The notes under the pieces were generated by a model that was given only the letters and a program-made list of their open reading frames with translations, made no database searches and had not been told where the DNA came from. Shown here piece by piece: positions 23,976-26,216 of a stretch of 64,000 nt of DNA (the first letter of the stretch is position 1; each line of letters opens with the position of its first letter). The DNA is from Caenispirillum bisanense (GTDB lineage: Bacteria > Pseudomonadota > Alphaproteobacteria > Rhodospirillales > UBA2165): the NCBI GenBank assembly GCA_945877815.1, contig CAMDWJ010000002.1, positions 62,001-126,000 on the forward strand, written 5' to 3'. Both the position numbers and the translations under genes were made by a program.

Positions 23976-24230
23976 ATGGCGAAGTCGGTCAGGATGACTG
24001 CCGAGGAACAATTCGCCAAGCTTCGTCAGAAAGAAAAAGAAGCCCTCAAGGAACGCGAAGCCGTCGAACGCGCCAAATCGGAAAAGGTCGCCAAACTACG
24101 CGGCCTTCGCCTTGCGAAGGAAGCCGCCGACAAGGTGGACGCTGACCGCGTCGCCGCCGAAAAGGCCGCCGCCGCTCCGAAAAAACGGGTCGCGAAGCCG
24201 GCCGCTAAGGTGGTGGAGAAGTCGGCCTAA
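23976..24230 (+). CDS. Small Lys/Ala-rich basic coiled-coil protein
   Basis: An 84-residue protein with a charged helical front (EEQFAKLRQKEKEALKER) and a Lys/Ala/Pro tail (AAAAPKKRVAKPAAKVVEKS) like a histone H1-type tail. AAGGAAG precedes the ATG by about 7 bases. It stands alone between a broken transporter and the MAPEG gene, with a 211-base upstream gap that should hold its promoter. Nucleic-acid binding is a guess from composition only; I recognise no named family. Confidence 0.65.
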   Translation: MAKSVRMTAEEQFAKLRQKEKEALKEREAVERAKSEKVAKLRGLRLAKEAADKVDADRVAAEKAAAAPKKRVAKPAAKVVEKSA

Positions 24231-24631
24231 AAGCCGCCGCTCAAGATCCAGCGGTAGATCGCCAAGCAGGCGGCAACAAGCAGTACGAGGGTCGATCCGC
24301 CCGCGCCGACCGCTCTTTGCCACGTCTCGCCCTTTTGGAAATCAAGCCCGAAGGGATGAATGAGGCGGGAGACGAACAGGACGATGCCGAGGGCGTGTAT
24401 GACGTAGATCGACACGCCCTGGAGTTCCAGGATTCCGATCAGGATCAGGCACATCGGCACCATTTCGATGAAATTGCCGTGTTGACGGATGGCCACCATC
24501 AGTTCGGAATTGCCGCCGTCCATAAGCGCAACGCGCACCCGCTTCCGGGTCAATCCGACCCGTACAATCAAAGCGACCAGCAAAATTCCGAGCAGGCCGG
24601 CATAAAGACCTGTAATGACGGGAACGTGCAT
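24227..24631 (-). CDS. MAPEG family membrane protein
   Basis: A 134-residue integral membrane protein with four hydrophobic segments and the MAPEG-type pattern RVGLTRKRVRVALMDGG, then RQHGNFIEMVPMCLILIGILE, typical of the bacterial MAPEG group (microsomal glutathione transferase relatives). The usual open frame extends further; the ATG at 24631 is chosen because GGGAGG is 6 bases upstream. The 3' end overlaps the last 4 bases of the small basic protein gene on the opposite strand. Confidence 0.85.
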   Translation of the reverse strand: MHVPVITGLYAGLLGILLVALIVRVGLTRKRVRVALMDGGNSELMVAIRQHGNFIEMVPMCLILIGILELQGVSIYVIHALGIVLFVSRLIHPFGLDFQKGETWQRAVGAGGSTLVLLVAACLAIYRWILSGGF

Positions 24632-24677
24632 TCTATCCTCCCTGAAGTCCCAGCAATCTTGGGCCGATTCGCACATC

Positions 24678-25139
24678 ATGGCCATGCCCCGTACCGTTCT
24701 GTTCCTGGGAACCGCCAATTCGGCGCGGAGCATTCTCGCCGAAGCGATGCTCGCCCGTCACGGCCAGGACGCATTTCGCGCCTATAGCGCCGGCGCTCGG
24801 CCAACCGGCCGCGTCGATCCCGCCACACTCGCTTTTCTCGCGCAGCATGGATACGCGACGGCCGGGTTGCAGTCCAAATCCTGGGACATATTCGCGGGCG
24901 AACGCGCACCTGCGCTCGATATTGTCATCACCCTGGAAAACAGTCTGATCGGCGAAATTTGTCCGGTCTTTTGGACTGGGCGGCCGGCTTCTTCGCATTG
25001 GCCCTTACCGGAAGAAGATGGGCTGGATGCCGTTCACGCGATTCTGGAACGCCGCATCGCGGCGCTCATCGCCCTGCCCTTTCCGGACCTCGACGCGCTC
25101 GGACTTCAGATGCGCTTGGACGCGATCGGGCGAAACTGA
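24678..25139 (+). CDS. Low-molecular-weight phosphatase/arsenate-reductase-like protein lacking the catalytic Cys
   Basis: A 153-residue member of the LMW protein tyrosine phosphatase fold, nearest to thioredoxin-linked arsenate reductases (RAYSAGARPTGRVDPATLAFL, SKSWDIF, RLDAIG at the end). The active loop, normally CTGNSAR (CX5R), reads GTANSARS here: the nucleophilic Cys is Gly at about residue 10. The second conserved Cys of the ITVCD segment is also missing (ITLENS). One Cys remains in GEICPV. So it is unlikely to be a working phosphatase or arsenate reductase, though a binding or regulatory role is possible. ATG at 24678 (or 24684). Confidence 0.75.
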   Translation: MAMPRTVLFLGTANSARSILAEAMLARHGQDAFRAYSAGARPTGRVDPATLAFLAQHGYATAGLQSKSWDIFAGERAPALDIVITLENSLIGEICPVFWTGRPASSHWPLPEEDGLDAVHAILERRIAALIALPFPDLDALGLQMRLDAIGRN

Positions 25140-25145
25140 CAGCCG

Positions 25146-26216
25146 CTAGAGCGCCGCTTCGACGGCGCGGCCCAATTGCGACGTATTTGCCTTGCCGCCC
25201 ATATCCGGCGTCAGCAGACTCTTGTCGGCAACTACCTTTTCGATCGCTTTCACGATGGCCGCCGCCGCTTCGGGCTCACCCAGATGATCTAGCATCATGG
25301 CACCCGACCAAATCTGTCCAATGGGATTGGCAATGCCGCGTCCCGCGATATCGGGTGCCGAGCCGTGCACCGGCTCGAACATCGACGGATGTTTGCGTTC
25401 CGGGTTGATGTTGCCGGACGGCGCGATGCCGATGGTACCGGTCACGGCGGGGCCGAGATCGGACAGGATATCGCCGAACAGATTGCTGCCGACGACGACA
25501 TCGAACCAATCCGGATTACGCACGAAATGCGCGGTCAATATGTCGATGTGATATTGGTCGACCTTCACATCGGGAAAGCGCGCCGAGGCAACTTTCACGC
25601 GTTCGTCCCAATAGGGCATGGTGTGGATGATGCCGTTGGACTTGGTCGCCGAGGTCAAATGCTTCTTCGGCCGTTTTTGCGCGAGCTTGAAGGCATAGTC
25701 GAGGATGCGATCCACACCCTTGCGGGTAAACATGGTTTCCTGCACCACGGTTTCCTGATCGGTTCCGGCATAGATACGCCCACCGATCTCCGAATATTCG
25801 CCTTCGCAATTCTCGCGCACGACAAAGAAATCGATATCGCCAGGCTTGCGGCCGGCGAGCGGCGTCGGTACGCCTTCGAGTAAGCGTACCGGGCGTAGAT
25901 TGACGTATTGATCGAACACGCGGCGGATCGGGATCAGCAATCCCCACAAGGAAACGTGATCGGGCACGCCCGGGAAGCCGACCGCGCCCAGAAAGATCGA
26001 ATCGAATGCGCGCAATTGGTCGAGTCCGTCGTCCGGCATCATCTTGCCGGTTTTCTTAAAGACCTCGCAGCTCCAATCGAAGGACTGGAATTTCAACGTG
26101 AAGCCGAACCGTCGCGCCGCGGCTTCGAGAACCCGCACCCCTTCGGGGCCGACCTCGGTACCGATCCCGTCGCCCGGAATCAACGCGATCTTGTAACTCC
26201 GCGTAGTGTCGCTCAT
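25146..26216 (-). CDS. Tartrate dehydrogenase/decarboxylase-like isopropylmalate-dehydrogenase family enzyme
   Basis: A 356-residue NAD-dependent beta-decarboxylating dehydrogenase: IPGDGIGTEVGPEGVRVL at the start, ENCEGEYSEIGGR (instead of the leuB RELTGG), NLFGDILSDLGPAVTG and FEPVHGSAPDIAGRG. The residues in the EGEYSEIGG segment are those of tartrate or D-malate dehydrogenases rather than leuB or icd. The exact acid is not certain. The ATG at 26216 (MSDTTRSYKIALIPGDG) is used; the frame extends upstream without homology. A 55-base gap separates it from the thiD stop. Confidence 0.83.
   Translation of the reverse strand: MSDTTRSYKIALIPGDGIGTEVGPEGVRVLEAAARRFGFTLKFQSFDWSCEVFKKTGKMMPDDGLDQLRAFDSIFLGAVGFPGVPDHVSLWGLLIPIRRVFDQYVNLRPVRLLEGVPTPLAGRKPGDIDFFVVRENCEGEYSEIGGRIYAGTDQETVVQETMFTRKGVDRILDYAFKLAQKRPKKHLTSATKSNGIIHTMPYWDERVKVASARFPDVKVDQYHIDILTAHFVRNPDWFDVVVGSNLFGDILSDLGPAVTGTIGIAPSGNINPERKHPSMFEPVHGSAPDIAGRGIANPIGQIWSGAMMLDHLGEPEAAAAIVKAIEKVVADKSLLTPDMGGKANTSQLGRAVEAAL

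Follow-up and report, generated by a model that had tools for sequence, protein, structure and literature searches.

Proteins of the LMW-phosphatase/ArsC family depend on the thiolate of a P-loop cysteine for catalysis, and animals are well known to possess dead phosphatases with a binding function. In STYX, the active-site Cys of the CX5R loop is replaced by Gly while the Arg is kept, and the protein is reported to act by binding (PMC8269279). Fusions of ArsR with ArsC are already in print as well (PMC6205960), whereas dead versions of such fusions were not found in the literature searched, as judged from listings. Likewise, the papers found in the open-licence literature searched describe no binder pseudophosphatase on the bacterial arsenate-reductase fold.

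Here, we describe P0001, a gene located in a 64,000-nt stretch of the Caenispirillum bisanense genome (the window), and its protein product. The thioredoxin/glutaredoxin-coupled arsenate reductases (pI258 ArsC, Bacillus subtilis ArsC and Deinococcus indicus ArsC2) share with P0001 the fold (Z 15–17), the sequence profile, the Asn, Arg and Ser of the P-loop and the third Cys; unlike them, P0001 lacks the nucleophile Cys, the second Cys and the Asp-Pro general acid, and has a shorter loop. With STYX and the eukaryotic pseudophosphatases of the dual-specificity type it has in common the replacement of Cys by Gly with retention of the Arg (GTANSARS), although these belong to another phosphatase fold class and kingdom, and STYX lost a single residue whereas three catalytic sites are affected in P0001. 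ArsR-ArsC fusions occur around the family of P0001, e.g., in the genome of the window (intact) and in genome G206 (with a dead domain), but P0001 carries no fused regulator and no ars gene lies near it. The ArsC-like proteins linked to ppdK in the f21 and f27 genomes belong to the same family and have also lost active-site residues in a preserved frame; they differ in their fixed ppdK-methyltransferase locus in many species, in the order of losses (the third Cys is gone) and in not being closest to P0001 in a 45-row tree. Finally, the Trypanosoma brucei mitoribosome assembly factor mt-SAF26 presents an LMW-phosphatase fold within an assembly complex (Z 14.3; profile E 3.5e-5), but is a structural neighbour of P0001 only. 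This factor (chain FW of PDB 6sga/7pua/9hny) also matches the profile of the ppdK-linked proteins at 7.4e-6.

Results

The P0001 protein matched the Pfam profile LMWPc with E 5.7e-14 (53 bits, curated cut-off 23.2), a family match far above chance. It missed the cut-offs of the NCBIfam equivalogs TIGR02689 (26.4 bits, cut-off 157.6) and TIGR02691 (24.9 bits, cut-off 174.3), which says little about P0001 because an active-looking relative, L135, also stays below the cut-offs of the arsenate-reductase equivalogs (80.3 bits). The nearest solved relative by sequence is D. indicus ArsC2 (8p5n). An AlphaFold model, computed from an input alignment of five sequences, reached a pLDDT of 86.2 and a pTM of 0.85, with residues 91–100 as its weakest block (pLDDT 59). 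Among solved chains, arsenate reductases come closest to this model (8p6m with Z 17.1 and an rmsd of 1.7 over 120 residues; pI258 ArsC 1ljl with Z 16.5), followed by tyrosine phosphatases of the same fold with Z 13–14 (1xww, Z 13.6). All structural matches inspected among the rows listed (Foldseek, VIA) were chains of the LMW-PTP/ArsC type, with arsenate reductases and LMW phosphatases ranking first. Starting from an ATG located upstream in the same frame (24615), the protein would have 174 aa; a clear ribosome-binding site upstream of 24678 was not seen by eye. The gene also contains an imperfect 23-nt inverted repeat (24870–24892 and 24956–24978, 74% complementary), which is probably due to chance.

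Table 1. Location of P0001, its motifs, its neighbours and related loci
Feature	Position	Strand	Remarks
P0001 gene, LMW-phosphatase/ArsC-fold putative pseudoenzyme	24678..25139	+	153 aa plus stop; translation, profile, predicted structure
P0001 phosphate loop GTANSARS	24708..24731	+	Gly11 (GGA) at the family's nucleophile-Cys position; Asn14, Arg17 and Ser18 kept
P0001 ITLENS	24927..24944	+	Glu87 at the site of the second redox Cys of active relatives (VTVCD)
P0001 CP motif	24960..24965	+	Cys95, the family's third Cys; kept (alignment)
P0001 Glu112-Glu113	25011..25016	+	Replaces general-acid Asp-Pro; about 11 residues then missing in frame versus relatives
Upstream neighbour, MAPEG-family membrane protein	24227..24632	-	Divergent, 45 bp from P0001; also present in same-genus G001
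Downstream neighbour, isocitrate/isopropylmalate dehydrogenase family (Iso_dh)	25146..26216	-	Convergent, 6 bp from P0001
Ordinary arsenic cluster of the window's own genome, contig C39	L143:3579-9000		Intact ArsR-ArsC fusion (CTRNSARS), ArsJ-associated GAPDH, MFS transporter weakly like ArsK
ppdK-linked ArsC-like set (f21, f27 genomes)	L102-L110, L112-L116, e.g. L107:7486-7995		Fixed position, flanked by ppdK (with glyS) and by a methyltransferase/ygfZ pair; most members have lost active-site residues

The original prediction held that this protein lacks the catalytic Cys of the P-loop (GTANSARS) and the second Cys (ITLENS), while the remaining fold motifs YSAGARPTGRVDP and SKSWDIF are kept. 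The translation of 24678–25139 (+) bears this out in every part. In this family, Cys11 is the nucleophile, while the roles of second redox Cys and general acid fall to Cys87 and Asp112, respectively; the correspondence to pI258 ArsC is based on alignment. Beyond the two losses already proposed, the alignment revealed a third one, the exchange of the general-acid Asp-Pro for Glu-Glu beside the in-frame deletion. Compared with 67 canonical relatives, P0001 keeps 37 of the 52 columns that are at least 85% conserved. Thirteen columns are invariant among these relatives, from which P0001 retains nine (Asn14, Arg17, Ser18, Glu22, Ser37, Ala38, Lys67, Cys95 and Pro96) and has lost four (Cys11 to Gly, Cys87 to Glu, and Asp112-Pro113 to Glu-Glu). 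The canonical relatives were picked by a motif demanding C, N, R and S of the P-loop together with the second Cys, by which 35 of the 102 rows were set aside; thus, invariance of these columns is given by construction, whereas that of Asp-Pro (67 of 67 relatives), Glu22, Ser37, Ala38, Lys67 and Cys95-Pro96 was not imposed. P0001 has one additional residue behind the CP motif, and its indels relative to the relatives are in frame. With nucleophile, redox partner and general acid lost, and fold and phosphate loop remaining, the proposed non-catalytic character is well supported, and P0001 almost certainly has no Cys-dependent enzyme activity.

Two other explanations bear directly on these residues. 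P0001 could still be active via a rewired chemistry, involving Glu112/113, Cys95 or another side chain, as Cys95, Arg17 and acidic residues are still in place; we regard this as quite improbable, because the mechanism of the family requires the P-loop thiolate and no residue takes the place of the nucleophile in the sequence. STYX, according to PMC8269279, is inactive due to the same Cys to Gly change. Still less credible is an artefact of sequencing or assembly affecting an ordinary ArsC. The gene is known from one draft genome of 84 contigs, and a second sequence of it was not found, but turning either Cys codon into the GGA of Gly11 takes two or more base changes, so that a single sequencing error does not account for it. 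Furthermore, the losses lie at three separate places, and about half of all P0001 residues differ from every relative among the matches listed.

Searching for orthologues of P0001, we found none in its own genome, in 24 genomes of the family, in one scan of genome contigs, in viral contigs or on plasmids, and none among the matches listed for 317 genomes of the order and 385 of a class sample. Matches of lower similarity were recorded in 3 of the 24 family genomes (the window's own included; those in the other two possess the Cys and lie in different contexts), in 202 of the 317 order genomes and in 173 of the 385 class-sample genomes. L033 was the best among the matches listed, with 57% identity and the motifs CTGNSARS and VCD. 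The scan of genome contigs yielded one relative from Albimonas (42%), the viral contigs three, all with Cys, and the 553 plasmid records only matches below 60% identity. P-loops were read in 100 tree rows, in 17 of 18 further loci (L117–L134) and in the three viral loci; among the matches listed, all 17 class-sample relatives (L118 to L134) carry the Cys. As no orthologue was found and the nearest relatives listed have the Cys, P0001 is a singleton, and a direct dN/dS is impossible for lack of a close orthologue. The proposed search for homologues sharing the Gly therefore had a divided outcome. An orthologue with Gly did not turn up and the nearest inspected relatives have Cys, which in part realises the situation that the original prediction had named as speaking against it, i.e., a single deviating copy among relatives with Cys; on the other hand, further lineages of the order show equivalent losses, in several cases also to Gly.

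In the 45-row tree, P0001 is the sister of the active L033 with a support of 97/85, the end branches measuring 1.41 for P0001 versus 0.17. A quick tree of 100 rows left its position open, and the placement is unsure because of the long branch.

The gene lies between neighbours that also occur in the same-genus genome G001, where the order EamA, cold-shock-like, MAPEG and dehydrogenase is kept and the dehydrogenase is 91% identical. In G001, the gap between the MAPEG and dehydrogenase genes is shorter than 100 bp and holds no ArsC-like gene, and the entire genome lacks a match to P0001. Therefore, P0001 was either gained in its own lineage or lost in G001, and it probably evolved fast after catalysis had gone. 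GC3 (0.69, neighbours 0.66–0.83) gives no hint on the origin, and a repeat search identified no insertion scar around the gene. The codon adaptation of P0001 (0.580) is below that of all 13 neighbouring genes (0.593–0.818), and codon usage fails to separate it from its antisense frame (0.568 for the opposite strand).

Several of these observations fit an explanation in which P0001 is a decaying ArsC relict that has not yet acquired a stop codon and is redundant with the intact arsenic cluster on contig C39 (Table 1). Besides the intact fusion beside the GAPDH and transporter genes of that cluster, it is the absence from G001, the very long branch and a codon adaptation ranking last among 14 genes that speak for decay. 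A simple scan of 24400–25300 found no promoter-like or terminator-like site, and the missing promoter-like site counts against a binder. Besides P0001, the genome encodes two LMWPc proteins, both with Cys, and the ArsR-ArsC fusion is one of them. We consider decay a serious contender, though not the leading one.

The original prediction had taken the preserved frame as an argument for some retained role. This argument is weaker than it looks: in simulations of neutral evolution to 54% identity (1000 runs per start, no indels), the frame was still open in 62 of 1000 runs starting from L033 and in 123 of 1000 starting from P0001. Such neutral survival of 6–12% does not exclude decay and stands on its side. 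A better argument for a role may be seen in the positions at which the sequence changed. Using columns unanimous in six near relatives, with the catalytic ones omitted, P0001 kept 29 of 35 positions conserved in the family vs 9 of 18 that vary in it (p 0.022), and a second choice of cut-offs gave 36 of 46 vs 3 of 9 (p 0.013). Compared with L033 alone, 29 of 35 vs 19 of 61 positions were kept, with a p value of 1.6e-6 that is inflated by changes in L033 itself. The contrast weakened once the four catalytic positions were counted as well, giving p values of 0.13 (six relatives), 0.05 (second cut-offs) and 3.3e-5 (L033 alone). The test pools change before the catalytic loss with change after it, so that the timing of the constraint lies outside its reach. 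This preferential keeping of conserved non-catalytic positions argues against decay, as do the changes that hit the catalytic centre but spared the YSAG and CP motifs, Lys67 and the oxyanion loop, and the gaps that keep the frame on a branch with much change, yet no stop. The predicted fold is confident too, though it leans on the family.

Additionally, we identified equivalent losses elsewhere in the order. The P-loop Cys is absent in 10 of the 100 rows of the large tree, P0001 counted, being replaced by Gly in P0001, L066, L071, L075 and L090 and by Ser in L062, L064, L065, L070 and L078. L071 and L075 are fused to ArsR, their open frames comprising 330 and 307 aa, respectively, and the fusion was read through in L071. 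An ArsR-type DNA-binding domain joined to an ArsC domain in which the nucleophile Cys is Gly is found at L099:8208-9197 and L100:7998-8843 (GAANSGRS and GAGNSGRS), suggesting a possible sensor.

Eighteen loci were chosen for context analysis because of their degenerate look, and 15 of them adjoin ppdK and/or a methyltransferase gene. Among these 15, the alignment showed seven without the P-loop Cys and six others in which the CX5R Arg is replaced (by Leu in L109 and L113, by His in L112, L114 and L115, and by Asp in L116), while L107 and L108 keep Cys and Arg of CX5R and lack the second Cys. The same site holds an intact active site in G190 (L135) and in G057 (L181, with residues as in L008), which indicates that the locus began as an enzyme; in L182 the gene is absent. 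NG86 dN/dS values of the degenerate pairs were 0.062, 0.112, 0.086, 0.099, 0.180, 0.279 and 0.160, the eighth pair being not computable; dS was saturated in most pairs, and the values are safe only for L104/L105 (0.062, dS 0.74) and L112/L115 (0.279, dS 0.77). Values of 0.06–0.28 in seven of eight pairs thus point to retention of the ppdK-linked degenerate proteins by selection, with a role kept.

P0001 could be a displaced member of this set or of the ArsR-fused one, without an independent loss of its own. Grouping with them was not rejected (AU p 0.106 for the f21 set, 0.182 for L071/L075 and 0.234 for L090), and the change from Cys to Gly is common to P0001, L066, L071, L075 and L090; altogether, the tree tests neither reject nor show that the Gly forms arose only once. 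We nevertheless judge such a displacement unlikely, as the free 45-row tree places P0001 beside L033, Cys95 is kept in P0001 and lost in the f21 set, and the gene contexts differ. P0001 lies outside the ppdK locus, with MAPEG and Iso_dh as neighbours; the methyltransferase copy of its genome is on contig C23, where the 13 kb examined contain no ArsC-like gene beside it.

Discussion

We favour, over decay, the explanation that P0001 is a binding-only pseudoenzyme, in which fold and oxyanion loop are kept and the whole catalytic apparatus is lost, and give it an even chance. It is favoured because the phosphate/arsenate loop has been kept while nucleophile and acid are gone, and because of the parallel to STYX. 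An ancestral arsenate reductase of the LMW-phosphatase fold would have lost its nucleophile, its second redox Cys and, together with a loop deletion, its general acid, whereas its fold and the loop that holds the oxyanion (N-S-A-R-S) were retained. The resulting protein would work by binding without turnover, similar to STYX, and may hold a phosphorylated partner or a phosphate- or arsenate-like oxyanion; alternatively, it may compete with active ArsC for a partner. In its sequence features, P0001 would then resemble a natural substrate trap.

The initial proposal of a sensor, a decoy or an early decay product is left partly open by these results. What has been gained is backing for a retained non-catalytic role, by analogy: equivalent losses recur elsewhere in the order, and one syntenic set is under purifying selection. 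Extending this thought, the arsenate reductases of this order might be a repeated source of STYX-like pseudophosphatases, which through several losses (Cys replaced by Gly or Ser, Arg by Leu or His) would give rise to regulators binding oxyanions or phosphoproteins, some fused to ArsR, some fixed beside ppdK, and P0001 being one more; this wider scheme is tentative and, at present, rather doubtful.

P0001 is a modest single example, and the conserved ppdK-linked degenerate set is the stronger by-product of this analysis. If P0001 is merely decaying, it represents ordinary gene loss. The ppdK-linked set, being under purifying selection, offers a directly testable case, more so than P0001. Should such degenerate proteins turn out to bind phosphate, arsenate or phosphoproteins, they would represent natural substrate traps and perhaps a new kind of regulator.
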